Below, piece by piece: positions 501 through 15,232 of a DNA stretch of 15,232 bases. Origin of the DNA: Clostridia bacterium (GTDB taxonomy: Bacteria > UBA6262 > WVXT01 > JAUXBS01); the NCBI GenBank assembly GCA_030618495.1, contig JAUXDE010000033.1, positions 1 through 15,232 on the forward strand. Direction: 5' to 3'. The position numbers were made by a program, and so were the translations under genes. The notes beneath the pieces are model-generated. The model had not been told where the DNA came from. It was given only the letters and a program-made list of their open reading frames with translations, and did not search any database. Numbering within the stretch: position 1 is the first letter of the stretch; the number at the start of each line of letters is the position of its first letter.

Positions 501-1136
501 CTACATCTTGTCTCTCGCAAGCAGGTAACTGAGGTTTTCAAGTTTAACCGCAAGGTCAACACTTCTTAATTTTATTTTATCCGGTACGGTCAGCCTGGAC
601 GGGGCAAGGTTCAATATTGCCTTTATTCCTGATTTTATCAGCATGTCAGCGGTTTTCTGGGCAGCAACAAAGGGAACCGCAATTATGGCAATTTTGATTT
701 TTTTCCTTTTTATTACTTCGGGCATGTACCTGGTATCCCTTATTTTTATCCCCTTCCAGCTTTTGCCGATTTTGGATTTATCGTTATCAAATATTACCAC
801 AACCTTAAAACCCAGTTTCTTGAAGCCCTGGTACACCGCAAGCGCCTTGCCGAGGTTGCCTGCGCCTACCAGCGCGACTTCCCATGCCTTATCAAGTCCC
901 AGTATCTTATTAATTGTATCGTATAATTCATCTATCCTGTACCCTACTTTTCTTTGACCAAGCTGGCCCAGGCAGGACAGGTCCCTGCGTACCGTCGCGG
1001 GGCTGAACCGGGTCTCCTTTCCCAGTTCGCTGGATGTAATGCACTGCCTGCGGTTGTCTTCATTCAACAGGTTTTCAAGACAGCGTTTATAGAGTGTCAT
1101 CCTGTCTATTGTCCCCTGCGGGATACTGCCTTTCAT
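501..1136 (-). CDS. rex: Redox-sensing transcriptional repressor Rex
   Basis: Rex represses anaerobic and fermentative genes when NADH is low and leaves DNA when NADH rises. This 211-residue protein has the usual length and order: an N-terminal winged helix (about 1-80, with SSELGK and FSPATVRRDLSCLGQLG as the recognition region), then a Rossmann domain with the dinucleotide motif GAGNLG at 91-96 followed by KALAVYQGF. A C-terminal helix ending LENLSYLLARDK is of the type that swaps between protomers. The ATG at 1136 follows GGGGAG at 8 bp. It is the last gene of the minus-strand operon, 3 bp after the radical SAM gene, so it is probably co-transcribed with the hydrogenase, NfnAB and MetVF genes and may control them. 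I found no convincing Rex operator in the window; the main promoter may lie beyond the right edge. Confidence 0.93.
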   Translation of the reverse strand: MKGSIPQGTIDRMTLYKRCLENLLNEDNRRQCITSSELGKETRFSPATVRRDLSCLGQLGQRKVGYRIDELYDTINKILGLDKAWEVALVGAGNLGKALAVYQGFKKLGFKVVVIFDNDKSKIGKSWKGIKIRDTRYMPEVIKRKKIKIAIIAVPFVAAQKTADMLIKSGIKAILNLAPSRLTVPDKIKLRSVDLAVKLENLSYLLARDKM

Positions 1137-1139
1137 TTC

Positions 1140-1853
1140 CTACACTCCCCTTGTCACGCATTTTTTCGGGTATTTTGATACATAAGCGCAGATTGCCTTC
1201 AATTCTTCCGGGTTGTAGGGCTTTATTTTCATGAACTCGGGGTCAAGGGTTTCCTGGGGCTTGAAGTTCTGCAGGGCGTATTTTTTTGCGCCCTTTATGT
1301 ACCGGGCAATCTTTTCTATGTCTTCCCTGCTGTGAAGAGTGGGCACCACCGTTGTCCTGAACTCATAATCAATTTTTGATTTCATTACGATTTTTATGGA
1401 TTCCTTAACCCTGTCTATTAGTAACTTGTTCTCTATACCCGCAGACTTCTTATAAGGCTCCTCTTCAAGCGGGGCTTTTATGTCTATTGCTATGTAATCA
1501 ATGATATTTTTATCCATCAAACCCTTTAACACACCAGGGAATGCGCCGTTAGTATCAAACTTTATTTTTACCCCTGTCTTTCTTATTTCCCCGATAAAAT
1601 CGGCTAAATCCTCGTACATGCAGGGTTCGCCGCCCGTAAGGCAGACACCGTCTATCCACCCCTTGTTCTTGATTAAATAATCCGTTACCTGTTTAAGCGG
1701 TATGGTTTCATATTTGTCAGGAGTAAGGATGAGGCCGGAGTTCTGGCAGAACGGGCATCTGAAATTGCAGCCCGGGACGTAAAGGGTGGAAACAATCATC
1801 CCGTCCCAGTCAAGCATGGATGTCTGGATAAAACCTTTTATAACTACCTTCAT
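1140..1853 (-). CDS. nrdG: Radical SAM anaerobic ribonucleotide reductase-activating protein (NrdG2-like)
   Basis: This is a radical SAM activase that would generate a glycyl radical on a partner enzyme, classically the class III ribonucleotide reductase NrdD. It has the CX3CX2C [4Fe-4S] motif CNFRCPFC (C29, C33, C36) and a SAM-binding LTGGEP motif. The N-terminus, MKVVIKGFIQTSMLDWDG, is characteristic of the NrdG2 (TIGR02495-type) branch. I place the start at the ATG at 1853, giving 237 residues, one base after the metF TGA (TGA-T-ATG) with CAGGG 7 bp upstream. A longer frame begins with a TTG at 1874 but adds seven residues not expected in the family. No nrdD is in the window, so the target is unproven. 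Its place inside this operon suggests co-expression under anaerobiosis; whether it serves NrdD or another glycyl radical enzyme is open. Confidence 0.85.
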   Translation of the reverse strand: MKVVIKGFIQTSMLDWDGMIVSTLYVPGCNFRCPFCQNSGLILTPDKYETIPLKQVTDYLIKNKGWIDGVCLTGGEPCMYEDLADFIGEIRKTGVKIKFDTNGAFPGVLKGLMDKNIIDYIAIDIKAPLEEEPYKKSAGIENKLLIDRVKESIKIVMKSKIDYEFRTTVVPTLHSREDIEKIARYIKGAKKYALQNFKPQETLDPEFMKIKPYNPEELKAICAYVSKYPKKCVTRGV

Positions 1854-1854
1854 A

Positions 1855-2730
1855 TCAGAGCCCTGCCTGCTCAAGTATAGCGGGAACGTGCTTGTCCCAG
1901 CCGAGTGGCATTATGTGGGCTCCCTGGCACATTGACTTTACCTGGCGTATGATTTGCGCTGATATTTCAATGGATTTTTTTGCCCTGTCTTCCTTGGGCG
2001 TATCGGCCATTTGCTTTATAATTGAATCAGGAACGCTTACTCCCGCGACGTTTGCGTTCATGAACTTCGCCATGCCGGCGGATTTCAGCACCACAATACC
2101 CACCATGACGGGAACGCCTAACTTCTGCGCTTCATTCATGAACTTCTCAAAAACATCCGGGCTGTAAACCGCCTGGGTCTGGAAGAACTGCGCGCCAGCA
2201 TCAATTTTTTTCTTCATCTTTATTAATTGCGGCTCCACGGGGTCGGATTCAGGGGTCACGACGGCGCCGTGGAACAAGTCGGGGGAACCGTCAAGTTCAT
2301 TCCCCTCCATGTCACGGCCGGCGTTTAAATCTGTTATTGCTTTTATCAACTGCACGGAATCAAGGTCAAAAACCGGCATGGAACCCTGGTGGTCGCCAAG
2401 AGAATTATGGTCTCCAGTGAGGCACAGGACATTCTGTATACCGAGTGACCATACTCCCAGCAGGTCCGACTGAAGCGCTATCCTGTTCCTGTCCCTGCAC
2501 ACCAGCTGAAACACCGGTTCCATTCCCTTCTCCACAAGGTGACGGCAGATTGCCTTGGAACTTATCCTCATGACCGCGCTCTGGTTGTCGGTAACATTTA
2601 TCGCGGTTACCCTGTCCTTTATGAGTTCGGCGTCCTCGATGCAGGCCTTGATATTCACTCCTTTCGGGGGGCCGACTTCGCTTGTTACGGCAAACTCCTT
2701 CTTCTTTAATGCTTCTGATAACTTACTCAT
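1855..2730 (-). CDS. metF: 5,10-methylenetetrahydrofolate reductase MetF
   Basis: MetF reduces 5,10-methylene-THF to 5-methyl-THF on FAD. The product feeds methionine synthesis or the methyl branch of the Wood-Ljungdahl pathway. The 291-residue TIM-barrel protein has normal length. The catalytic acidic residue is expected at E18 in TSEVGPP, followed by INVTDNQ (about 44-50), QLVCRDRN (about 75-82) and LTGDH (104-108), which shape the flavin and folate site. The ATG at 2730 overlaps the end of metV by 8 nt and follows a GGAGGAGG tract about 9 bp upstream, so the two are translationally coupled. The pairing with metV marks the acetogen-type enzyme rather than the stand-alone E. coli type. In Moorella the metV-metF pair sits beside hdrCBA-mvhD; here no hdr genes are present and a hydrogenase plus NfnAB take that place. 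Confidence 0.95.
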   Translation of the reverse strand: MSKLSEALKKKEFAVTSEVGPPKGVNIKACIEDAELIKDRVTAINVTDNQSAVMRISSKAICRHLVEKGMEPVFQLVCRDRNRIALQSDLLGVWSLGIQNVLCLTGDHNSLGDHQGSMPVFDLDSVQLIKAITDLNAGRDMEGNELDGSPDLFHGAVVTPESDPVEPQLIKMKKKIDAGAQFFQTQAVYSPDVFEKFMNEAQKLGVPVMVGIVVLKSAGMAKFMNANVAGVSVPDSIIKQMADTPKEDRAKKSIEISAQIIRQVKSMCQGAHIMPLGWDKHVPAILEQAGL

Positions 2731-3412
2731 TTACGATTACCTCCTCCTCAGATTCTATATCATAATATTTACTTCCTCTTGTTTTTTTATCAGGCATCAT
2801 TTTCCTGTAATCCCTTGCCTCCACGAACATGTTAAGTTTTTTAAGTTTCCCGAGTTTCTTAAGCCTTTCATATATGTTGTGCCAGCCGCATTCTCTTTCC
2901 TTGTCAACCTCGCACATGCCTTTCAGCGCGCCCCCGCACGGCCCGTTGAGAAGCCCCTTGGTGCACGCCGTGATAGGACATATGCCCGATGTTAAACCGA
3001 GGAAGCACTTGCCGCATTCCTCGCATCTCTCCGTTGAAGGCCACAGGCCCTGGAAACCGCCCACAAAGACCGAATTATTGGCGGGGCACACCGGTTTTTC
3101 AATCACCGCGCCAACCGCCTGAACGCCTATCCCGCACGAAAGGACGAGTATTGAGTCCGCGTTCTTTATTATATCCATATTCCTGTCTATCCTTATCCGG
3201 TCAAGCATCTTATTGCAGAGGAAATCTATATCGATACATCCCAGAACCTTCTTGCCGGCTTTTTCAAGTTCGCCTTTCATCTTCAGGCAGGCTTCTTTTC
3301 CACCGGTATCGCAGACTTCCGCGCAGCCGTTACAGCCGATTAAAAATATGTTCTTTTCATCATTCAGCAGTTTTAGTATCTCCTTCATCGGTTTTTGTTC
3401 GGTAAGAATCAT
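2723..3412 (-). CDS. metV: MetV, cysteine-rich partner subunit of methylene-THF reductase
   Basis: MetV is the small subunit that accompanies MetF in acetogens and many anaerobes. It contributes metal/Fe-S binding and stabilises the complex. The 229-residue protein starts with CNGCAEVCDTGG (about 27-38) and has further conserved cysteines in VLGCIDIDFLCNKML. Its C-terminal half is the MTHFR_C-type cysteine-rich domain, with CEECGKC, GICPITAC and NGPCGG clusters (roughly 130-170). The last part is charged and probably flexible. The ATG at 3412 has a perfect AAGGAGG (3421-3427) with 8-bp spacing, 15 bp after the protease stop. It overlaps metF by 8 nt. The fit to MetV is clear, but which cysteines bind iron-sulfur or zinc cannot be read from sequence. 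Confidence 0.9.
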   Translation of the reverse strand: MILTEQKPMKEILKLLNDEKNIFLIGCNGCAEVCDTGGKEACLKMKGELEKAGKKVLGCIDIDFLCNKMLDRIRIDRNMDIIKNADSILVLSCGIGVQAVGAVIEKPVCPANNSVFVGGFQGLWPSTERCEECGKCFLGLTSGICPITACTKGLLNGPCGGALKGMCEVDKERECGWHNIYERLKKLGKLKKLNMFVEARDYRKMMPDKKTRGSKYYDIESEEEVIVNE

Positions 3413-3427
3413 ACTATTTTCCTCCTT

Positions 3428-3883
3428 TTACTTTGCTATCTCTTTTATTACCGCATTTACCACGTCCGGTATCTTCCGGGTTAGTTTTTCAGATAAACCC
3501 AGTTCGGGTTTAATAATCTCAGGTTCAATCCCGATAACAATAACGTCTTCGGGACACATCCCCAGTTCCCTTGCCATTGATAGAGTCTCAAGAAGCCCCA
3601 TCTGGTGCAGTGATATTTTTTTATTCTCAAACATATCTTCCGGCTTAAACCTGTAAATCGTTCCGGGAACCCTGCCTGCCCTTACTGCATCAACCACTAT
3701 CAGTTTTCTTACGTTTTTAAAGTACGACATCGTGTCAATAACAGCAGTACCCGCATCCATTACATCAACATTGCCGGGAAGAGTCCTTTTTTCAAGTTCC
3801 TCTGCGACATGAACGCCTATTCCCTCATCCTTCATGAGTATATTGCCTACTCCGAGTATAAGGATGCGCTCAGCACCCTGCAT
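3428..3883 (-). CDS. [NiFe] hydrogenase maturation endopeptidase (HyaD/HybD/HycI family)
   Basis: This protease clips the C-terminal tail of the hydrogenase large subunit once nickel is in place. The 151-residue protein has the family GVGN motif near the N-terminus (11-14). The expected nickel-sensing ligands are E20 (in MKDEGIG), D65 (in VVDAV) and H93 (in SLHQMGL), matching E16/D62/H93 of E. coli HybD. The frame is open back to a TTG at 3889, but the Shine-Dalgarno AGGAG (3890-3894) would touch that codon and lies 6 bp from the ATG at 3883, so the ATG is the start. It overlaps the end of the large-subunit gene by 14 nt, as expected for a dedicated protease, and its likely substrate is the 16-residue tail there. 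Confidence 0.93.
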   Translation of the reverse strand: MQGAERILILGVGNILMKDEGIGVHVAEELEKRTLPGNVDVMDAGTAVIDTMSYFKNVRKLIVVDAVRAGRVPGTIYRFKPEDMFENKKISLHQMGLLETLSMARELGMCPEDVIVIGIEPEIIKPELGLSEKLTRKIPDVVNAVIKEIAK

Positions 3884-5411
3884 CAACAACTCCTATTTCA
3901 TTTCCCTTGTAATCAACGAGGTGCACAGAACATGCAAGGCAGGGGTCAAAGGAACGGACTATCCTTACGATTTCAAAGGGATTATCCTCATCTTTTATTT
4001 TAGTGCCTATTAGCGCCTGTTCTATCGGTCCGGGCTGGTCATTATCATCCTTTGGAGATGCGTTCCATGCCGTCGGCGTAATAACCTGGTACCTGTCTAT
4101 TTTTCCACCCTTTATAGTTATCCAGTGCCCCAGCGCCCCGCGCGGCGCCTCAGTCAGGCCTATTCCCGACGCTTCATCAGGAACATCGCATTGCGTATAC
4201 GAGGGTTCCCCCGGCTTCAGTTGCTGTACCCATTCTATCATTGCATCCACTACGATTTTGGCGTCAATGGCGCGCGCCGCATGCCTGCCGAGTACAGAAA
4301 ACAGCTTGTCGGGGCCTGCCTTGAATTTCTTTAAAACAGAATCAACCAGCGTCTTCACCTTCTCATCACCGCTTACATAATTTACAGCTATCCTTGCCAG
4401 CGGCCCCAGTTCATAAACCTTACCGTCATACCTTGGAGATTTCAGGAAGGAATAAGCCCCCTTCTTGCCGGGTTCGGGAATTGTTTCGCCCTCGGCGGGA
4501 TTCTTATGAGTGGATGCATCCGCATACCATGAGGATTTTACGTCTTCCGTAATCTTTAACGCATCAACGTTCCCTTTCTTCAAATCCGTTGAAACCATGC
4601 CCGGCTTAAACAGCATCTCATTACCCTCTTGCTCAAAACCCCCGTACGCCAGCAGGTTGCCGCAGCCACTGCCAATCGTAAAGTAATCACTGTATACTTC
4701 AGCCGCTTTAAGCACATCGGGAATGTATATATTATCAACAAATTCCTTTATTTCCTTAGCCCTCCACAGGAAGTTAACGATTTTATCAGTCGTTACTTTG
4801 CTCGTAACTCCCCCGGCAATCGTTCCTACATTGTGCGGCATCTTGCCACCGAATATCGCAAGCAGCTCATGCGCCTTCATCCTCATGCCCAGGGCTCTTA
4901 CGTAATGGTCAACCAGTTCTATGTTCTCTTCCTCCTTGAACCGGTAGTCTCCTTCATACCTTGGCACGAACGGGAACAGCTGACCCCGGGCAATGAAGTC
5001 ATTTATTGATTTCAGCGACGGGTCATCCCCTTTATACTTTGCAACGCTCGTAACATCAACGTAATCAAGCGCCGCAAGGTGATAGAAATGCAGTATATGC
5101 GATTGGAGAAAATTGCTTCCCAGAATCAGGTTCCTTATAATCCTTCCGTTGTCAGTGATTTTCCCTCCGATGCCAAAGGCATCGTCAAGGCATAGCGCGG
5201 AAGCTGTTGAGTGGGAAGCCGGGCAGACACCGCATATCCTCTGGGTAAGACGGTTTGCATCTAAAGGATGCCTTCCTTTTAAGATGATTTCAAACCCCCT
5301 GAACAGCGTTCCCGTAGATGAAGCTTCTTTGATTTCGCCATTATCCACCATCACCTCAACCTTCATGTGGCCTTCTATACGCGTAAGGGGATCAACGGTT
5401 ATTTTCTTCAT
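3870..5411 (-). CDS. [NiFe] hydrogenase large (catalytic) subunit, group 1-like
   Basis: This catalytic subunit carries the NiFe(CN)2CO centre that splits or forms H2. The 513-residue precursor has L1, RICGVCPASH, with C60 and C63, and L2, DPCLACSVH, with C491, C494 and H497; these four cysteines bind nickel. Residues 498-513 form the tail removed after H497 by the protease encoded next. The N-terminus (PLTRIEGHMKVEV, TGTLFRGFEIILKGR) resembles group 1 enzymes of about 500-570 residues more than the roughly 430-residue group 3b or 3d subunits. Both L2 cysteines are TGC/TGT codons, so this is not a selenocysteine enzyme. The ATG at 5411 follows the small-subunit stop by 13 bp, with GGAAGGGAGA just upstream. 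The exact subgroup needs a phylogeny; the assignment as a [NiFe] hydrogenase is secure. Confidence 0.95.
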   Translation of the reverse strand: MKKITVDPLTRIEGHMKVEVMVDNGEIKEASSTGTLFRGFEIILKGRHPLDANRLTQRICGVCPASHSTASALCLDDAFGIGGKITDNGRIIRNLILGSNFLQSHILHFYHLAALDYVDVTSVAKYKGDDPSLKSINDFIARGQLFPFVPRYEGDYRFKEEENIELVDHYVRALGMRMKAHELLAIFGGKMPHNVGTIAGGVTSKVTTDKIVNFLWRAKEIKEFVDNIYIPDVLKAAEVYSDYFTIGSGCGNLLAYGGFEQEGNEMLFKPGMVSTDLKKGNVDALKITEDVKSSWYADASTHKNPAEGETIPEPGKKGAYSFLKSPRYDGKVYELGPLARIAVNYVSGDEKVKTLVDSVLKKFKAGPDKLFSVLGRHAARAIDAKIVVDAMIEWVQQLKPGEPSYTQCDVPDEASGIGLTEAPRGALGHWITIKGGKIDRYQVITPTAWNASPKDDNDQPGPIEQALIGTKIKDEDNPFEIVRIVRSFDPCLACSVHLVDYKGNEIGVVDAGC

Positions 5412-5424
5412 ATATTCTCCCTTC

Positions 5425-6267
5425 CTATTCCTTCACCTTTATTTTTTTGTACAGCGGTGAAAACTTATCCGGAAATTCAGGTTCCACGCAGCCATGACAG
5501 GGCGAACCGTTCTTTATGCACCAGTTAATACCACTGTTAAACTGCCTTTCAGGACAGTCCGCGCTGGTATACGGCCCCTTGCATCCAAGTTCATACAAAC
5601 ACCCTTCATCGCCTATTTTCTCCGCAAATTTACCCTTGTCGAAATCCGGCCTCCTCGGACAGTTCTCGTGAATCAGGCCGCCGTAGAACAACTTCGGCCT
5701 TGCAAGGTCATCCACCTCGATGTCCAGGCCGCCAAGCATAATGCTTGCAACGGTACCTACGAACCAGTCAGGGTGGACAGGACATCCCGGGACATTAATA
5801 ACCGGGACTTTAATATTATTATGTTTCAATACATGCATAACACCCTTGCATCCCGTGGGATTCGGCTCGGCAGCCGGTATTCCCCCGAATGCCGCGCATT
5901 GTCCAATGGCAATTACCGCCAGGGCGTCCTTTGCCATGTCCTTGAAAACCTCCAGCAGGGTCTTGTCGCCCAGTTCACAATAAACACCGTTGTCCGCAGT
6001 GGGTATAGCGCCCTCAACTATAAGTATATACTTGCCCGTTAATTCCTTTTTAGTATCAGGCAGGACTTTTAATGCCACCTCGCCGCTTCCCGCCATGATT
6101 GTCGCATGGAACCTCATGCTTACATGTTTTCCCGGAACCACTTCGTCAATCAATACATTTGAGATACTGGGACTGACTGAATTCAGGATAGACACCGAAC
6201 AACCCGTACAGCCTGCGCCCTGAAGCCAAATAACAGGATATTCCGCCGTTTTCGTATCTTTTGCCAT
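5425..6267 (-). CDS. [NiFe] hydrogenase small (electron-transfer) subunit, soluble, no Tat signal
   Basis: The small subunit relays electrons from the NiFe site through three iron-sulfur clusters. In the 280-residue protein the proximal cluster ligands are C20, C23 (GCTGC), C124 (GQCAAFGG) and C162 (PGCP). The distal cluster ligands are H200, C203, C223 and C229. The medial cluster ligands are C238, C257 and C260, plus C250 in the NWC motif. Standard group 1 enzymes have proline at that last place and a [3Fe-4S] cluster; cysteine there suggests [4Fe-4S], as in [NiFeSe] and other hydrogenases. The N-terminus (MAKDTKTAEYPVIWLQG) has no twin-arginine signal and the C-terminus no membrane helix, so the enzyme is cytoplasmic and soluble. 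A perfect AAGGAGG (6274-6280) lies 6 bp before the ATG at 6267. Its electron partner is not fused or anchored; NfnAB is the best local candidate. Confidence 0.95.
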   Translation of the reverse strand: MAKDTKTAEYPVIWLQGAGCTGCSVSILNSVSPSISNVLIDEVVPGKHVSMRFHATIMAGSGEVALKVLPDTKKELTGKYILIVEGAIPTADNGVYCELGDKTLLEVFKDMAKDALAVIAIGQCAAFGGIPAAEPNPTGCKGVMHVLKHNNIKVPVINVPGCPVHPDWFVGTVASIMLGGLDIEVDDLARPKLFYGGLIHENCPRRPDFDKGKFAEKIGDEGCLYELGCKGPYTSADCPERQFNSGINWCIKNGSPCHGCVEPEFPDKFSPLYKKIKVKE

Positions 6268-6280
6268 TTCCTGCCTCCTT

Positions 6281-7315
6281 TTAACATATTCGCGGGAGTT
6301 GTTCTCCCGTTAAAGTATCAACCATCCTCATGCCGCCTATTCTTGTTTTTAACAACACTTTTTTCCTGTGTTCCTTTACAACCTCTCCTATAATCCCCGC
6401 ATTTCTTCCGTCAACCGTCTTTTTCATCGCGTTCAATATTTTTTCCGCATCCTTTTTGGCTACAAACGCAACCAGTTTGCCTTCATTTGCGACGTAAAGC
6501 GGGTCAAAACCAAGCATCTCACACAATCCCCGGGTTTGATTTCTTACAGGTATGTCTTTTTCGCTTATTTCTATGCCCACCCCGGATTTTTCTGCAATCT
6601 CGTTAAGGGAAGTTGCGAGCCCTCCCCTGGTGGGGTCGCGCATTACATGAATATTCTTACTTGCTTTAAGCATTGCCCGGGTCAGTCCATTGAGGGCTGA
6701 ACAGTCGCTTTTAATGACCGTTTTTAAATTGAATTCCTTCCTGGCGGACATTATAGCCATTCCGTGATCGGCAACGGTGCCGCTTATAATTATCCTGTCT
6801 CCTATTTTAGCATTTGCCGAACCGATATCCAAACTCTTTTCTATCACCCCTATCCCCGAAGTGTTTATAAATATCCCGTCCGCGTTTCCTTTCTCAACCA
6901 CCTTGGTATCACCGGTAACGATTTCCACCCCGGCAGCCTTTGCGGTTTTATTCATGGAAACAATTATTTTCCGGAAATCATCCATGGGGAACCCCTCTTC
7001 AATTATGGCTGAAGCTGACAGCCATAAGGGCTTTGCCCCTGTCATTGAAAGGTCGTTAACCGTTCCGCACACCGCCAGCTTCCCTATATCTCCCCCGGGG
7101 AAGAACACCGGGTTTATAACATAAGAATCCGTGGTAAAAGCAAGTTTTTTGCCTTTGTAGTTTATATCAAGGACAGCGCTGTCATCCAGTTTCCTGAGCA
7201 CAGGGCTTGTAAAGGACTTAAGAATATCTTTTATCAACCTGCTGCTTAATTTACCCCCGCTGCCGTGCGCGAGTACTATTTTTTCCTTATTATTTTTCAT
7301 ATTTGAAGGATTCAT
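6281..7315 (-). CDS. hypE: Hydrogenase maturation factor HypE
   Basis: HypE dehydrates the carbamoyl group received from HypF on its C-terminal cysteine to a thiocyanate, the source of the CN ligands of the NiFe site. The 344-residue protein has the PurM/SelD-type ATP-binding fold, with AHGSGGKLSS near the start, LDDSAV, TTDSYVINPVFFPGGDIGKLAV and RDPTRGGLATSLNE. It ends with the diagnostic PRIC, the last residue being the acceptor cysteine. The start at 7315 overlaps nfnB by 26 nt and has a weak AAGAG upstream. A second ATG at 7300 would shorten the protein by five residues and has no better Shine-Dalgarno, so the exact start is uncertain. It is separated from hypD by nfnAB, which ties those genes to the hydrogenase unit. 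Confidence 0.96.
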   Translation of the reverse strand: MNPSNMKNNKEKIVLAHGSGGKLSSRLIKDILKSFTSPVLRKLDDSAVLDINYKGKKLAFTTDSYVINPVFFPGGDIGKLAVCGTVNDLSMTGAKPLWLSASAIIEEGFPMDDFRKIIVSMNKTAKAAGVEIVTGDTKVVEKGNADGIFINTSGIGVIEKSLDIGSANAKIGDRIIISGTVADHGMAIMSARKEFNLKTVIKSDCSALNGLTRAMLKASKNIHVMRDPTRGGLATSLNEIAEKSGVGIEISEKDIPVRNQTRGLCEMLGFDPLYVANEGKLVAFVAKKDAEKILNAMKKTVDGRNAGIIGEVVKEHRKKVLLKTRIGGMRMVDTLTGEQLPRIC

Positions 7316-8681
7316 GAATAACTCTTGCGATTTTTCTTGCCACCCCCATTGCCGATATAACCGTGGCTGAACCTGTTACTATATCGCCGCCCGCATATAC
7401 GTTCTTCTTTGAAGTCATGCCGGTTTTTTCGTCAACGGTTATGTATCCCCACTTGTTGAGCTTTATGTCGGGAGTTGCCGAGGTAAGCAGGGGATTTGCA
7501 CCGGCTCCTATTGCCATGACAACAACATCGACATCAATGGTAAACTCCGAACTCTTGACAGGCACCGGCCTTCTGCGTCCGGATTCATCCGGCTCCCCGA
7601 GTTCCATCCTGATGCATTCCAGGGCTTTGACCCAGCCATTACCGTTATCAATTATACGAACAGGATTGGTCAACAGCCTGAAATCAATACCTTCCTCCTC
7701 TGCCCGCTCGATTTCCTCGTCCCTTGCGGGCATTTCCTTCCTTGAACGGCGGTACACATTATAAACCTTTTCCGCTCCCAGCCTGAGCGCCGTGCGCGCA
7801 GAATCCATTGCAACGTTGCCGCCTCCCACAACAGCATACTTTTTGGCTTTTATTACAGGTGTATCGTAACTATCATCATACGCTTTCATCAGGTTTGAGC
7901 GGGTTAACAATTCATTCGCGGAATACACGCCGTTAAGGTTCTCCCCGTCAATTTTCATAAACATCGGGAGTCCAGCCCCTATTCCGACATAAACCGCGTC
8001 ATACCCCATCTCAAACAGCTCATCCACAGCGTGAACCTTCCCTATAACGTAATCCGGTTTTATCTCCACCCCGAGTTTCTCAATGTAGTCAACTTCTCTC
8101 TGAACAATGGACTTCGGTAACCTGAACTCAGGAATGCCGTAAACAAGGACTCCCCCCGCCTTATGCAGGGCTTCAAATATGGTTACCTTATAACCCAGTT
8201 TTGCCAGGTCGCCGGCTATGGTCAATCCCGAAGGGCCCGAACCCACGACAGCGATTTTCTTACCGTTAGCCTTTGTTTTCTCCGGAATTTTAATCTTGCC
8301 CCTGCCCTGCTCATAATCAGCGGCAAAACGCTCCAAACTGCCTATTGCCACGGGGTCGAATTTCCTGGCCAGGGTACAGACCTTTTCACACTGGTCTTCC
8401 TGCGGGCATACCCTGCCGCAAACACCGGGCAGGCAGTTCTTTTCCTTAAGTTTTATTGCCGCGCCTATGAAATCCCCTTCAGCTATCATCTTTATGAAAG
8501 CAGGTATGTCAATCTCTACGGGACAGCCGTCCACGCATGGCGCGTTCTTACATTGAATACAGCGTTTGGCTTCCGCTACAGCCTGTTCCTGTGTGTAACC
8601 AAGCGGAACTTCATTGAAATTCTTAACTCTTTCCCCTGGAGACTGGGACGGCATTGGTGTCTTGTTTTTATTTATTGCCAC
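7290..8681 (-). CDS. nfnB: NfnB-like FAD and [4Fe-4S] subunit of NADH-dependent ferredoxin:NADP oxidoreductase (glutamate synthase small-chain family)
   Basis: NfnB carries the bifurcating FAD that splits NADPH electrons between ferredoxin and NAD, or runs in reverse. The 463-residue protein has an N-terminal cysteine domain with CIQCKNAPCVDGC (C41, C44, C49, C53) and a second set at C83, C88, C92, C98 and C102 for [4Fe-4S] clusters. Then come the FAD motif GSGPSG (147-152), the pyridine-nucleotide motif GGGNVAMD (286-293) and YRRSRKEMPA (310-319), whose arginines favour NADPH. A GGD motif near the end closes the FAD site. The start is a GTG at 8681 with GGAGG 9 bp upstream, overlapping nfnA by 14 nt. 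Relatives include the beta subunit of glutamate synthase and SudA, but the adjacent nfnA makes Nfn/Sud the right family. No gltB lies nearby. Confidence 0.88.
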   Translation of the reverse strand: MAINKNKTPMPSQSPGERVKNFNEVPLGYTQEQAVAEAKRCIQCKNAPCVDGCPVEIDIPAFIKMIAEGDFIGAAIKLKEKNCLPGVCGRVCPQEDQCEKVCTLARKFDPVAIGSLERFAADYEQGRGKIKIPEKTKANGKKIAVVGSGPSGLTIAGDLAKLGYKVTIFEALHKAGGVLVYGIPEFRLPKSIVQREVDYIEKLGVEIKPDYVIGKVHAVDELFEMGYDAVYVGIGAGLPMFMKIDGENLNGVYSANELLTRSNLMKAYDDSYDTPVIKAKKYAVVGGGNVAMDSARTALRLGAEKVYNVYRRSRKEMPARDEEIERAEEEGIDFRLLTNPVRIIDNGNGWVKALECIRMELGEPDESGRRRPVPVKSSEFTIDVDVVVMAIGAGANPLLTSATPDIKLNKWGYITVDEKTGMTSKKNVYAGGDIVTGSATVISAMGVARKIARVIHESFKYEK

Positions 8682-9513
8682 TTATTCTTTCCTCCAACCG
8701 GCATTTTTTATGCGCTTCTTTTTCTTCTTTGAGATATACTTTTTGCCTGTCATTCAGTAAATTAAAATTAACTTTATGGGCGTCAAAATCAGGGCCGTCA
8801 ACACAGGCAAATTTCGTTTTGCCGTCAACTTCCACCCTGCAGCTTCCGCACATCCCGGTCCCGTCAACCATGATTGAATTCAGGCTGACAACCGTTTTTA
8901 TGTTAAACGGCCTGGTTGTTTCGCTTACAACTTTCATCATAATCGCCGGGCCTATGGTCATAACCAGGTCGATTTTTTCCTTGTTATCAATAATATCTTT
9001 TAATTGGTCGGAAACAAAACCCTTCTTTCCGCTTGAACCGTCATCGGTTGTAATGTAAAATTCATCGCTTACCGTTTTGATCTTATCTTCCCAGAAAATA
9101 AAGTCTTTAGTCCTTGCGCCGAGTATGGAAATTACCCTGTTCCCGGCTTCTTTCATGCCCCTGGCTATGGGATAAATACAGGCGATACCTACCCCGCCGC
9201 CCACACAAACCACGGTTCCGTATTTTTCAATATGCGTGGGGATTCCCAGTGGGCCCACAACATTAAGTATCCCCTCTCCTTTTTTTATGTTTCCCAGCTG
9301 CATGGTTGATTTGCCCACTTCCTGGACAATTATGGTTATAGTTCCTTTTTCCCTGTTGAAATCCGCGATGGTCAAGGGAATCCTTTCGCCTTTTTCATCT
9401 ATGATTATAATAACGAACTGGCCCGGTTTCGCCTTCCTTGCTATGTCCGGAGCGTCTAATACGTAAAGTTTTTCACCCGGAGCTATATCTTCTTTCTCTA
9501 ATATCTTGTACAT
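8668..9513 (-). CDS. nfnA: NfnA-like FAD/[2Fe-2S] subunit (ferredoxin-NADP reductase family)
   Basis: NfnA/SudB is the ferredoxin-NADP reductase-like subunit that exchanges electrons with NAD(H) through FAD and passes them to NfnB. The 281-residue protein has an FAD-binding beta barrel (about 1-95, with RIPLTIAD), a nucleotide-binding domain starting VVCVGGGVGIACIYPIARG (about 101-119), and a C-terminal [2Fe-2S] site in VDGTGMCGSC...FAC. C222, C225 and C237 are three ligands; D217 may be the fourth, since NfnA is known to use one Asp and three Cys. The ATG at 9513 follows AAGGA (9523-9527) by 9 bp. The Shine-Dalgarno abuts the edge of the inverted-repeat element, which also holds a candidate promoter for this gene. 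The alternative name is the gamma-type diaphorase subunit of sulfhydrogenases, a homologous protein. Confidence 0.88.
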   Translation of the reverse strand: MYKILEKEDIAPGEKLYVLDAPDIARKAKPGQFVIIIIDEKGERIPLTIADFNREKGTITIIVQEVGKSTMQLGNIKKGEGILNVVGPLGIPTHIEKYGTVVCVGGGVGIACIYPIARGMKEAGNRVISILGARTKDFIFWEDKIKTVSDEFYITTDDGSSGKKGFVSDQLKDIIDNKEKIDLVMTIGPAIMMKVVSETTRPFNIKTVVSLNSIMVDGTGMCGSCRVEVDGKTKFACVDGPDFDAHKVNFNLLNDRQKVYLKEEKEAHKKCRLEERISGNK

Positions 9514-9527
9514 TTTAGTTTTTCCTT

Positions 9528-9623
9528 TTAAATAGGGACAGACACCTATTTATCTGTATTAATTATATTATTATATATACTTATTTACTGTTTTCAATTA
9601 AATAGGTGTCTGTCCCTATTTAA
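9528..9623. repeat. REP/MITE-like inverted-repeat element between hypD and nfnA
   Basis: Two perfect 25-bp inverted arms (9528-9552 and 9599-9623) flank a 46-bp AT-rich centre (9553-9598). Each arm is itself palindromic: AAATAGG and CCTATTT enclose 8 nt (GACAGACA in one arm, TGTCTGTC in the other), so each can fold alone, or both can pair into a long stem. This structure is typical of REP-type palindromes mobilised by IS200-like (RAYT) transposases, and I recall the GGGACAGACACC core as a dispersed repeat in several anaerobe genomes. The right arm enters hypD and supplies its last two codons and TAG stop (9616-9618); the left arm ends beside the nfnA Shine-Dalgarno. No transposase and no further copy is seen in the window. 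No U-tract follows the stem, so it is not a standard intrinsic terminator. Confidence 0.75.
9570..9597 (-). promoter_or_regulatory. Candidate sigma-70-type promoter inside the inverted repeat, driving nfnA onward
   Basis: Read on the minus strand, the centre of the element has TTGAAA (9597-9592) and a perfect TATAAT (9575-9570) with a 16-bp spacer. A transcript would begin near 9563 and run through the left palindromic arm before the nfnA Shine-Dalgarno at 9527-9523, giving a leader of about 50 nt with one hairpin. This would allow nfnAB-hypE-hydrogenase-metVF-nrdG-rex to be transcribed apart from hypAFCD. The centre is very AT-rich, so a chance match is possible. Confidence 0.5.
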
Positions 9624-10920: not shown

Positions 10921-13233
10921 TCATTTTCCTTTTAGCTTAGCCATTGCCACGGCAGCCTGTCCCAGTGAAATCCCACCGTCATTGCAGGGATACTGCTTAT
11001 TGAAATAAACCTTAAATCCCGAGGAAGCCAGAACCTTAACGCTCTCTTCCATTATTATCCTGTTCTGGAAAACCCCTCCGGACAATACAATTTCGTTAAT
11101 TCCTTTTTCCTTCCTGATAATCCTACTCATCTTATCAATTATATCGACCACTGTAAAGTGAAATTTTAATGCGATGTCACGCCCGGGGAGCCCTCTCCTC
11201 ATATCCCCTACAATTGCTTTTATAATTGTTGCCGTATTGACAATATTAACGCCTTTTATGTTATTTATCTCAAATTCATAACAACCGCGCTTCCTGCCGG
11301 ACGATGCGGCAAACTCCAGTTCCATGGCAGGCTGCGCGTCATAAGTAGTCTTACCGCAGATATCCAGTAGGGCGGAGACTCCGTCAAACAACCTCCCCAT
11401 GCTTGAGGTCAGCGGAGAGTTTAATTTGCTGTCAATCATTGAAATTATCCCATTCACTTTTTTCCTGTTCCCTCTCATAAATTCCAGGTCGGGAATATCC
11501 CTGCAAAACGCATCGCGCAGGTAACTAACAGCCATCCGCCAGGGCTCTTCAACCGCTTTATCGCCTCCCGGCATGGCAGTGTACCTAAGATGCCCTTCCC
11601 TTTTGAAACCCCTGCGATCAGCCACAAACCATTCGCCCCCCCAAATATTTGCGTCAACACCGTAACCTGTTCCATCAAGAACCACGCCAATTACCTTATT
11701 CTTTATTCCGTTTTCAATCATGCAGGAGGCCACATGAGCATGATGATGCTGAACAGGTATTAATCTGCATTTATTGTTTTTCGCGTACTCAAATGCGAAT
11801 TTCGTGGAAAAATAATCCGGGTGCATATCATGCGCGACAATTTCAGGACTTATGTCAAGCAGGGCTTTGAACTTCCCTATCGTTTGACGGAAGTACATAT
11901 AGTTTTCATAGTTCTTTAAATCTCCTATGTACTGGCTGACAAAAGCGCGGTTTTCCTTCGTAAGGCAGAAAGCGCTGTTAAGTTCCGCGCCGCAGGCAAG
12001 TATGTTTTTCGTCCTTACACCCATCTCCAGGGGTAAGGGGACAAACCCCCTCGCCCTGCGTATTACATTACTGCCGGATGCTTTCAGGGGCAATACGATT
12101 GAATCATCGCAGCGGTTGTATATATCACGGTTGTGTATGAGAAAATACTCTGCAATACGGTTCAATCTTTTCATTGCAGTAATATTGTCAATCTCAAGCG
12201 GCCTGCCTGGAATGTTACCGCTCGTCATGACTAAAGTTGACGCCTTTTTACCGTTCTTTTTAAGTTCATTAAATAAAAGATAATGCAATGGAGTATAAGG
12301 AAGCATAACTCCTAGGCAGTCATTGCCAGGAGATATTGCCCTGGAAATATATTTACTATAGTTTGCTTTTTTCCTTAAAAGGACTATCGGCCGCCTCCAG
12401 CCGGTAAGAATTTTCTCTTCCTTGTTTGTTAAATAACAATACCGTTTTACCGACTCTATATCCGCCGACATCACGGCAAACGGCTTGAAAGGGCGGCTCT
12501 TCCTTTTCCTGAGTTTTTCCACAACATCGCCTCCGGATGCGATACAGGCAAGGTGAAATCCCCCCAGCCCCTTAACCGCCAGTATTTTACCCTTTTTTAA
12601 TAACTTTACGGACTCCCTGATTGCATCCATATCCTTAAGAACAGTTTTTTTGTTCCCCGGCTTCACCAGCATTGCCTCAGGACCGCAATTATTACAGGCA
12701 ATCGGCTGGGTGTGGTAGCGCCTGGACCGTATGTCATTGTATTCCATGCGGCATTCCGGGCACATCCTGAACTTTTTCATCGTTATTCTCTGCCTGTCAT
12801 AAGGAAGGTCTTTGATTATTGTAAACCTTGGCCCGCAGTCCGTACAACTGATGAATGGATGTTCATAACGCCTGTTGCGCGGGTTTTTTAATTCAGCGGC
12901 GCACCGCGGGCATACGCTTATATCGGGAGTAACGAGGACTTTCTTTTCCTTCAGGAAGGAACTCTTTCTTATTTTAAAATCTTTGTAGCCCTTAATTTTA
13001 AGATATGATATCTTAATATCATCTATCTGTGAAGGCGCCGGCTTGTTCTCAAGCGCCTCTTTATAAAACCTGCCAACGGCGTTTTTCTGCCCCTCAACTT
13101 CAACGGTTACGCCTTCGGTGGTATTCTGCGCCCAGCCGTTTAGTTTATATTTGGCGGCAAGCCTGTGAATAAAAGGGCGGAAACCAACCCCCTGGACAAT
13201 ACCATGAAATATAATTTTTGCTCTTTTCCTCAT
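10921..13233 (-). CDS. hypF: Carbamoyltransferase HypF
   Basis: HypF makes carbamoyl-adenylate from carbamoyl phosphate and ATP and transfers the carbamoyl group to the C-terminal cysteine of HypE, the first step of cyanide ligand synthesis. The 770-residue protein has the whole domain order. An acylphosphatase domain (about 1-90) carries GIVQGVGFRPF. Two zinc-finger pairs follow (about 108-185: CPRC...CTDCGPRF and CPEC...CNNCGPE). A YrdC-like domain (about 200-385) carries KGLGGFHLAC. A Kae1-like C-terminal domain has the metal-binding HHHAHVASCM and GVVLDGTGYG, then LSGGVFQN near the end. The ATG at 13233 overlaps the hypA stop as ATGA. Length is normal for the family and no lesion is visible. 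Confidence 0.97.
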   Translation of the reverse strand: MRKRAKIIFHGIVQGVGFRPFIHRLAAKYKLNGWAQNTTEGVTVEVEGQKNAVGRFYKEALENKPAPSQIDDIKISYLKIKGYKDFKIRKSSFLKEKKVLVTPDISVCPRCAAELKNPRNRRYEHPFISCTDCGPRFTIIKDLPYDRQRITMKKFRMCPECRMEYNDIRSRRYHTQPIACNNCGPEAMLVKPGNKKTVLKDMDAIRESVKLLKKGKILAVKGLGGFHLACIASGGDVVEKLRKRKSRPFKPFAVMSADIESVKRYCYLTNKEEKILTGWRRPIVLLRKKANYSKYISRAISPGNDCLGVMLPYTPLHYLLFNELKKNGKKASTLVMTSGNIPGRPLEIDNITAMKRLNRIAEYFLIHNRDIYNRCDDSIVLPLKASGSNVIRRARGFVPLPLEMGVRTKNILACGAELNSAFCLTKENRAFVSQYIGDLKNYENYMYFRQTIGKFKALLDISPEIVAHDMHPDYFSTKFAFEYAKNNKCRLIPVQHHHAHVASCMIENGIKNKVIGVVLDGTGYGVDANIWGGEWFVADRRGFKREGHLRYTAMPGGDKAVEEPWRMAVSYLRDAFCRDIPDLEFMRGNRKKVNGIISMIDSKLNSPLTSSMGRLFDGVSALLDICGKTTYDAQPAMELEFAASSGRKRGCYEFEINNIKGVNIVNTATIIKAIVGDMRRGLPGRDIALKFHFTVVDIIDKMSRIIRKEKGINEIVLSGGVFQNRIIMEESVKVLASSGFKVYFNKQYPCNDGGISLGQAAVAMAKLKGK

Positions 13234-13605: not shown

Positions 13606-15232
13606 TTACTGAGGCAGACTTCTAAGTTTATTTATTATATCGGAGGAGCGGGGATCTATTTTTAAAGCATTTTCAAATGTTTCCCTTGCCTCTTTATACA
13701 TGCCTTTCTTTGAATAAGTCAATCCAAGATATGAATAAGAATCAATATGTGAGGAATTCAATGATATGGCCTTCTTGTACAACTCCACAGCCCTGTCATA
13801 AGATTTATTTAAGAGGTAAACACTGCCAAGATTGCTATAAGCATCATATTTTGCGGGGTTTAGTCTTATAGCCTCCTCATACTCAACAATTGCATTATCA
13901 AGAAGCCCCTTGGTGGCATAAGCCGACCCCAGATTACCGCGAGTGAAGGAACTGTCGGGATTATATTCCAGGGATTTCTTGAATGACTCAATCGCCCTGT
14001 CAATAAGGCCTTTATCAAACAATCCCATCCCCAGGTAATTATGCGCATGAGCATCGTCGGGATACTGCTTGATTGTTTTTGACCACAGGGAATATTCATC
14101 CTTCCAGTCCTTGTTTCTATTTATTGTAAGCAACGATAATACAATTATGATTATTGATAATAACACAGGCAGGATTTTCTTATGGAACTTACCAGGTGTA
14201 AACTTAAATAGTAGGATTACGAATGCAGCAAAGAATCCAATCCCCGGCAGATAAAGTCTATGTTCATTCATAACGATAGGCTGGGGAAGTATGGTTGATG
14301 TTGGTATCAAGGCAATAAGGAACCAGAGCATGAACAGAGAAGCAGTTTTTGAAATCTTAATTAATCTGATGCTGGCATATATCAATAGCATTATTCCAAT
14401 AAGTGAAGACAACACCCTGATGTCCATGATTTTTTCTGATACAGGGAAAGCATGGTAAACCGAGAATCCCCCGGGATAGAAAAATAATGTTATGTATTTA
14501 ATAATAACTCTGAACTGCGTTATGAAGTAATTAAACATACTTGCCGAGTCACCGGTTGGAGAGCTAAACTCTTTTAAAACACCGTGACCGAAGAATCTAA
14601 TAAGCAAATATATAAATGTCACTGATATAAACAATAAATGATATTTTTTGAATTGTTTGATAAATCTATCATTCTTAAAATTGGAAATAAAATACAAGTC
14701 TATAAATATTATTATTAAAGGAAACGTAATTGCTATTTCCTTGCTCATGAGCGCCAGGACATAAGATATTACTGATAGTAAGAATAATATGTAATTACTC
14801 CTGTTTATGTTTCTTAAAAACAATATTACCGCTAACAGGTAGAAAAATGTTGCCATAACGACAGACCGCTGCCAGATATAGTTAACAGCTTCTGAATTTA
14901 TCGGATGGACTGCAAATACAAGCGAAATGAACAGAGCTATTGTATATTTGTTGTTTTCTTTTATCAGAATACTCTCATCACCTGTTACCATGCCCGATAA
15001 TATAATAATTAACAAATACACTAATACAGCATTAGCAACATGAAAAAGTATATTGACTATATGATACCCGGCAACATTAAGTCCACCGATTTCATAATTT
15101 ATGGCAAAAGAAGACATCACAAACGGCCTGTACAATAATTTCCCGAATTTCGGAGGATTACTGGTAATTCCTTTGGTGAAAAACAGAGGAATATTTTCAA
15201 GGTTTCTTATAAGAATATTATTAACGATAGTG
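13606..15232 (-). CDS. TMTC-like multi-spanning membrane protein with C-terminal TPR repeats (5' end outside window)
   Basis: A long membrane domain with about nine to ten hydrophobic segments is followed by about four or five tetratricopeptide repeats in the last 165 residues (for example AHNYLGMGLFDKGLIDRAIE and YSNLGSVYLLNKSYDRAVEL). The N-terminal YRPFVM...GGLNVAGYHIVN...H and HPINSEAVNYIWQR motifs match the TMTC/DUF1736 family of GT-C-fold protein O-mannosyltransferase-like proteins and their bacterial relatives. The frame does not start at the TTG at 15135. It stays open for 32 more codons to the window edge (LIRNLENIPLFFTKGI and onward, typical of the family), so the true start lies beyond 15232. 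The TAA at 13608-13606 is 28 bp from hypA, same strand. It is more AT-rich by eye than the hyp genes and has no evident tie to hydrogenase function. Substrate unknown. Confidence 0.8.
   Translation of the reverse strand, partial: TIVNNILIRNLENIPLFFTKGITSNPPKFGKLLYRPFVMSSFAINYEIGGLNVAGYHIVNILFHVANAVLVYLLIIILSGMVTGDESILIKENNKYTIALFISLVFAVHPINSEAVNYIWQRSVVMATFFYLLAVILFLRNINRSNYILFLLSVISYVLALMSKEIAITFPLIIIFIDLYFISNFKNDRFIKQFKKYHLLFISVTFIYLLIRFFGHGVLKEFSSPTGDSASMFNYFITQFRVIIKYITLFFYPGGFSVYHAFPVSEKIMDIRVLSSLIGIMLLIYASIRLIKISKTASLFMLWFLIALIPTSTILPQPIVMNEHRLYLPGIGFFAAFVILLFKFTPGKFHKKILPVLLSIIIIVLSLLTINRNKDWKDEYSLWSKTIKQYPDDAHAHNYLGMGLFDKGLIDRAIESFKKSLEYNPDSSFTRGNLGSAYATKGLLDNAIVEYEEAIRLNPAKYDAYSNLGSVYLLNKSYDRAVELYKKAISLNSSHIDSYSYLGLTYSKKGMYKEARETFENALKIDPRSSDIINKLRSLPQ

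Follow-up and report, generated by a model that had tools for sequence, protein, structure and literature searches.

A [NiFe] hydrogenase lacking an export signal is encoded with a methylene-tetrahydrofolate reductase in diverged uncultured lineages: a candidate H2:methylene-tetrahydrofolate oxidoreductase

The stretch analysed here, hereafter the window, is one whole contig of 15,232 nucleotides (JAUXDE010000033.1; G000:C60) from a 1.69-Mb metagenome-assembled genome, 98% complete, that is labelled Clostridia bacterium. It encodes a [NiFe] hydrogenase (HydS and HydL) in a single run of genes with MetV and MetF, the iron-sulfur (FeS) and flavin subunits of a MetVF-type methylene-tetrahydrofolate (methylene-THF) reductase, and with the electron-transfer enzyme NfnAB. 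Between positions 501 and 13577 every gene lies on the minus strand, in the order hypA, hypF, hypC, hypD and, after a gap of 102 base pairs (bp), nfnA through rex. The run nfnA-nfnB-hypE-hydS-hydL-protease-metV-metF-nrdG2-rex shows overlaps or spacings of 15 bp or less throughout: nfnA/nfnB, nfnB/hypE, hydL/protease and metV/metF overlap by 14, 26, 20 and 8 bp, respectively, and spacers of 13, 13 and 15 bp separate hypE from hydS, hydS from hydL and the protease gene from metV. The coordinates thus bear out the co-directional, tightly packed order from nfnA to metF described in an initial annotation of the window, and they place two further genes, nrdG2 and rex, in the same run past metF. The genes at the center of this report are the following.

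8668..9513, minus strand: nfnA, small subunit of NfnAB (NADH-dependent ferredoxin:NADP oxidoreductase); NF004862, 425.7 bits (cut-off 220); 5jca_S, 361 bits
7290..8681, minus strand: nfnB, large subunit of NfnAB; TIGR01316, 581 bits (cut-off 472); 4ylf_B, 561 bits
6281..7315, minus strand: hypE, [NiFe] maturation; TIGR02124, 467 bits (cut-off 252)
5425..6267, minus strand: hydS, hydrogenase small subunit, without a twin-arginine translocation (Tat) signal, NiFeSe-like; 1cc1_S, 274 bits, best PDB match; alignments
3870..5411, minus strand: hydL, hydrogenase large subunit with a cleavable tail; NF033181, 709 bits (cut-off 600)
3428..3889, minus strand: hydrogenase maturation protease, HyaD/HybD-like; TIGR00072, 156 bits (cut-off 47)
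2723..3412, minus strand: metV, FeS subunit of a MetVF-type methylene-THF reductase; PF12225, 106 bits
1855..2730, minus strand: metF, flavin subunit of methylene-THF reductase; PF02219, 140 bits

HydL passes the NF033181 cut-off and carries all four nickel ligands in the motifs RICGVCPASH (L1) and DPCLACSVH (L2). HydS is nearest to the small subunits of [NiFeSe] hydrogenases (1cc1_S) and keeps the twelve ligands of the proximal, medial and distal FeS clusters; a fourth cysteine at the medial site (NWC) makes it possible that all three are [4Fe-4S] clusters. The protein starts MAKDTKTAEYPVIW, with neither a Tat signal nor an RR motif, and its 294-codon frame leaves only about 14 codons upstream of the start. 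A hydrophobic helix is likewise missing from its C-terminus. Both subunits thus bear the marks of group 1 [NiFe]/[NiFeSe]-like hydrogenases, with the Tat signal lacking, and judged from these features the enzyme appears to be a branch of the group 1a lineage that stays in the cytosol, not a periplasmic group 1a hydrogenase. Assignment to group 3, with NfnA as a HydG subunit, was rejected: HydSL resembles group 1 enzymes, and HydG is a far poorer match for NfnA than Nfn is. NfnA and NfnB align over their full length with solved Nfn enzymes (5jca, 4ylf), with no added domain for a hydrogenase, and conserve their cluster motifs (VDGTGMCGSC...FACVDG in NfnA against 5jca_S; CIQC..CPVEI and CGRVCPQE.QCE..C in NfnB against 4ylf_B). 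By its domains, the reductase is of the MetVF type, combining a MetF barrel with a PF12225 MetV encoded upstream of it; no protein in the PDB is related in sequence to MetV.

The window's HydS was searched against 386 genomes, and a profile search around G315 then added members. The closest HydS homologues (55-63% identical) come from outside the window's phylum and belong to G382, G179, G322, G190 and G315. G315 and G190 have hydS-hydL-protease-metV-metF, G179 has hydS-hydL-metV-metF and G382 has hydS-hydL-protease-metV followed by hypF-C-D, with no metF beside the hydrogenase. The G322 cluster is split on two contigs, one ending with hydS-hydL-protease and another carrying protease-metV-metF. 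The genomes recovered by the profile search (G390, G392, G394, G395, G396 and G398) show hydS-hydL-metV, plus metF where the contig is long enough. Including the window's own genome and its sister species (G000 and G001), metV adjoins 13 of 13 Tat-less HydSL pairs versus 0 of 21 Tat-bearing relatives within the stretches fetched; 19 of the latter fit a strict RRxF near the called start, while G115 and G096 have the RR further in or a variant of it. In the same stretches, which are short for G396, G398 and G322, nfnAB was found in none of the 11 linked clusters outside the window's genus. Flanking genes vary between lineages and the hydSL-metV core stays constant; the conserved unit is HydSL-MetV(F), and nfnAB accompanies it only in the window's genus. 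By kinship codes, these 11 genomes have no rank below the domain in common with G000. As we read the codes, the linked clusters come from three or more lineages of apparent phylum rank, G315's set appearing apart from G190/G322.

In a tree of HydS plus HydL, the 13 Tat-less members formed one clade (96/95) nested inside the Tat-bearing forms, which makes a single loss of export the simplest reading. Since they are one clade, the contrast of 13 with 21 represents one origin kept in diverged lineages rather than 13 independent events. In the MetV tree, 12 linked proteins, together with the MetV and MetV-RnfC pair of G003, split from 11 unlinked MetV at 100/99. In both trees G382 pairs with the window's genus and the family groups are the same; HydSL and MetV largely co-segregate. 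Residues G29, N67, K68, W124 and R129 were found only in linked MetV, as was a C-terminal tail absent from unlinked MetV; these features fit a putative docking surface. The linked metV is the sole metV copy in G382, G315, G190 and G322.

Within the clade, some HydS ligands vary. The fourth medial ligand is cysteine in the window, G001, G190, G322 and G315 and valine or proline in the others (L108, L109, L149-L154), and in G315 (L112, 482-1426) the first cysteine of the proximal cluster is replaced by aspartate (GASDSGC), the other proximal and distal ligands being kept. An insertion, VPGKH, was considered as a mark of linked HydS and dropped, as the Tat-bearing G199 has it too.

The sister species G001 (JAUXBS01) retains the cluster on two pieces, hypD-nfnA-nfnB-hypE-hydS (L023) and hydS-hydL-protease-metV-metF-rex (L022). 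Its proteins are 73-87% identical to those of the window, with dN/dS values of 0.05-0.12 where computable (the synonymous estimate for hydS was saturated), in keeping with purifying selection; with the gene order retained at this distance, the arrangement is not due to chance. The NCBI label of G001 is 'Clostridia bacterium', yet it is placed in the window's genus, within a lineage that has few relatives among the genomes available, and the label may be only provisional. In G002-G005, four genomes from the window's order (where genes without a window counterpart were named from reading the sequence alone), nfnAB lies between ndk-like and rpmF-plsX-fabH-like genes, and metV and metF stand among folate genes that include fhs-, lpd- and folD-like ones; an fhs-like ORF next to metV was observed in these same-order relatives only. 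Of these four, only G002 and G005 were found to have hydSL, Tat-exported and beside tatA-like genes. Likewise, nfnAB, metVF and hydSL stand at three separate places in G090, outside the window's phylum, and a search of the phylum of G090 returned nothing further beyond G090/G230. Thus, the cluster uniting all three modules is special to the window's genus. Relatives with the same hydrogenase without nfnAB therefore exist, whereas those without metVF are only the Tat-exported forms, which differ in topology.

We propose that the Tat signal was lost a single time from a NiFeSe-like group 1 hydrogenase, which came to pair with a MetVF-type methylene-THF reductase. HydL would split H2 at its Ni-Fe site. 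The electrons would travel along the three HydS clusters, leave by the distal one, cross the FeS clusters of MetV and arrive at the MetF flavin, which would reduce methylene-THF to methyl-THF. MetV would be the docking subunit for HydS. We assign a probability of about 60% to the view that HydSL and MetVF together form the core, an H2:methylene-THF oxidoreductase in the cytosol with MetV as the docking point; physical contact, electron path and forward direction are alike predictions drawn from gene neighborhoods and conserved residues. In the window's genus, nfnAB would have joined the operon as what is probably a co-regulated neighbor, NfnAB most likely serving only to balance NADH, NADPH and ferredoxin. 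The transfer from H2 (-414 mV) to methylene-THF (-200 mV) is downhill (PMC9430772); our own calculation puts it at about -41 kJ/mol in the standard state and, with the Nernst equation, still at about -13 kJ/mol at 1 Pa H2. From these potentials, H2 too scarce to reduce ferredoxin could still sustain a direct HydSL-MetVF enzyme.

Several points weigh against this proposal. Direct coupling would waste about 41 kJ/mol at standard conditions and would conserve no energy by itself, and the adjacency of hydSL and metV could reflect co-regulation only. Monophyly of the linked MetV alone is weak (54/32), and their signature residues could be due to shared ancestry. Co-inheritance of MetF with the hydrogenase was rejected, an approximately unbiased (AU) test giving p 0.007 for linked MetF as one clade, and the two MetF copies of the window's genus are sisters in the MetF tree. 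Together with the G382 metV that has no metF beside it, the failure of MetF to form one clade points to MetV as the constant partner. Furthermore, the window's genus has a second metVF. G000 has a second metVF plus a lone metV (L044), the second metF being 63% identical to that of the window; in G001 an acsB gene lies immediately upstream of the second metVF. Lastly, acetyl-CoA synthase is present in 6 of the 13 linked genomes, and none was found in the other 7, which are 80-93% complete. Seven absences exceed what incompleteness would lead one to expect, and the unit may thus also serve organisms without acetogenesis.

One alternative is that the system runs in reverse, MetVF oxidizing methyl-THF and HydSL evolving H2, as in syntrophic oxidation of acetate or methyl groups. 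A Tat-less [NiFe] hydrogenase by metF has indeed been described in two soda-lake syntrophic acetate oxidizers and read as H2-producing (PMC6295475, PMC10608574). By our calculation, however, this direction costs about 41 kJ/mol at standard state and still costs about 13 kJ/mol at 1 Pa H2; it would have to be pulled strongly or use an additional coupling site, of which the 11 clusters lacking nfnAB showed no sign. We regard it as unlikely. An improbable second alternative dispenses with the complex: HydSL and MetVF would be linked through ferredoxin or another soluble carrier, and the operon would only co-regulate them. Isolated MetVF enzymes take reduced ferredoxin in vitro (PMC8760232, PMC8515935), the extra medial cysteine of the window's HydS allows all three clusters to be [4Fe-4S], and rex, encoding a redox-sensing repressor, ends the run. 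Most linked HydS outside the window's genus, G190, G322 and G315, however, carry the valine or proline typical of a higher-potential [3Fe-4S] medial cluster, less suited to ferredoxin, and the strict metV adjacency across very divergent genomes, with the changes specific to MetV, asks for more than co-regulation. It is also conceivable, at rather long odds, that HydSL-MetVF constitutes a separate class of cytosolic H2-fed methylene-THF reductase in which, in the window's genus, the joined NfnAB lets the downhill step push electrons to ferredoxin. The initial annotation had tied the hydrogenase to MetVF, a link that the neighborhoods described above uphold, by way of HydSL docked on NfnAB, with a reduced carrier feeding MetVF in a hydrogenase-Nfn-MetVF assembly; although nfnAB does lie inside the hyd operon in two species of the genus, includes the only nfnA copy in the genome and conserves its FeS-binding residues, we consider this docking very unlikely, as the core occurs in 11 clusters without nfnAB, relatives keep nfnAB at an unrelated locus, and neither Nfn subunit departs from solved Nfn enzymes along its length.

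The genome carrying the window encodes acsB, a cooS-type Prismane/carbon monoxide dehydrogenase (CODH) protein and a cooC-like open reading frame (ORF; G000:C163). Thus, the CODH/acetyl-CoA synthase that marks a Wood-Ljungdahl acetogen is present, and a look for acsB and cooS, both among the genes that the initial annotation had advised seeking, found them. Other loci bear on MetV and on hydrogenases more generally. Two metV copies lie on L044 (G000:C116); at 42% identity to the MetV of the window, they sit among ORFs resembling NBP35/Mrp ATPases, dinitrogenase-cofactor proteins and S-adenosylmethionine (SAM) methyltransferases. In G179, one ORF (L156, 5098-6741, C99) fuses MetV to MetF, constituting a second methylene-THF reductase alongside the hydrogenase-linked one. 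In G003, a single ORF (L083, 3-1982; G003:C150) fuses MetV to an RnfC-like protein and is followed by another metV and metF; this is an RnfC2-type reductase in the window's order, and its MetV groups with the hydrogenase-linked MetV. L045 (8169-19973; G000:C152) encodes a group 4 [NiFe] membrane hydrogenase that includes Mrp-like antiporter subunits, with HydB- and HydG-like proteins encoded ahead of it; the hydrogenase large subunit has all four nickel-binding cysteines (RICGIC, DPCYCC), and the arrangement suggests an NAD(P)H-linked membrane hydrogenase.

The remaining genes of the window's minus-strand run are listed below.

1140..1874, minus strand: nrdG2-type radical SAM activase; TIGR02495, 198 bits (cut-off 131)
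501..1136, minus strand: rex, NADH/NAD+-sensing repressor; PF06971 and PF02629
9616..10698, minus strand: hypD, maturation; TIGR00075, 484 bits
10708..10919, minus strand: hypC, maturation chaperone, 70 amino acids; resembles hypC-sized ORFs beside hyp genes in relatives
10921..13233, minus strand: hypF, maturation; PF22521, PF01300, PF17788, PF07503 and PF00708
13230..13577, minus strand: hypA, nickel insertion, 115-amino-acid ORF; resembles hypA-sized ORFs beside hyp genes in relatives

The hypD, hypC, hypF and hypA genes lie upstream of nfnA, beyond the 102-bp gap. The gap is occupied by a near-perfect inverted repeat (9531-9620; AATAGGGACAGACACC...GGTGTCTGTCCCTATT) that resembles a mobile palindromic element and might divide the operon in two; hypD and nfnA almost abut in the sister species. 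Rex-like operator patterns gave scattered matches only, none at a plausible operon start. The rex gene closes the run in both species, and nrdG2, which overlaps metF by 20 bp, is found in that position in the window species only, being missing from the G001 cluster; the window has no ribonucleotide reductase gene. Upstream of hypA, 13606-15231 encodes a membrane protein with C-terminal tetratricopeptide (TPR) repeats, truncated by the contig end and with a G+C content of 0.34, below that of the operon. Among the genes of the window, to which this statement applies, there is no Hdr, MvhD, cytochrome or HoxFU gene, as the initial annotation had it, and neither hdrCBA-mvhD (the Moorella Hdr-type reductase) nor rnfC2 (the A. 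woodii type) stands beside metVF.

What donates electrons to MetVF-type reductases in living acetogens has yet to be settled: MetVF alone is unable to use NAD(P)H, and ferredoxin as donor gives a negative ATP balance on H2 + CO2 (PMC8760232). If true, a clade with a cytosolic hydrogenase wired to MetV would provide a direct answer for several uncultured lineages, and a step driven by H2 and feasible even at very low H2 would suit energy-poor habitats. HydSL-MetVF also offers a testable set of four subunits.

Among solved structures, the small subunit closest to the window's HydS is that of the Desulfomicrobium baculatum [NiFeSe] hydrogenase (1CC1), which shares its extra medial cysteine. [NiFeSe] hydrogenases are periplasmic via Tat and have a selenocysteine ligand where the window's HydL has cysteine. 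Hydrogen-dependent CO2 reductase (HDCR), composed of an [FeFe] hydrogenase and a formate dehydrogenase, is a functional parallel to the proposed unit, with a hydrogenase wired directly to a Wood-Ljungdahl reductase; it is not homologous. Methylene-THF reductases have been classified as MetF, MetVF, MetVF-RnfC2, HdrCBA-MvhD-MetVF and MetVF with a NuoEFG homologue (PMC8760232, PMC8515935), the same MetVF core taking varied redox partners; here the extra partner would be a whole hydrogenase instead of RnfC2, Hdr/MvhD or NuoEFG, and none of the published schemes has a hydrogenase type (PMC8760232, PMC9430772, PMC8515935). H2 drives MetVF in Sporomusa ovata too, but its hydrogenase is Tat-exported, cytochrome-linked and connected across the membrane with Hdr-like proteins, whereas that of the window would be cytosolic and has no membrane partner in the cluster (PMC9430772). 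In Ca. Bipolaricaulia metagenome-assembled genomes from Great Salt Lake, one sentence on two operational taxonomic units reports HysAB beside MetVF; the two cases share a group 1a (Hys) hydrogenase by MetVF and the guess that it supplies electrons for methylene-THF reduction, and the text of that report contains no signal-peptide, phylogenetic or cross-phylum analysis, nor does it mention NfnAB with HysAB-MetVF (PMC11287216). The two soda-lake organisms, 'Ca. Syntrophonatronum acetioxidans' and 'Ca. Contubernalis alkaliaceticus' (PMC6295475, PMC10608574), resemble the present clade as far as their descriptions alone allow a likeness to be drawn; there the hydrogenase-metF pair was read as H2-producing, NADH-linked or regulatory, and the former has a second metF in its acs operon, as the window's genus seems to have. 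Three papers (2018, 2023 and 2024) mention the adjacency of a hydrogenase to MetVF or metF in passing, each with a different reading, and we found no paper in the open-access literature that treats it as a family. The present survey unites these three scattered remarks on what looks like the same neighborhood.

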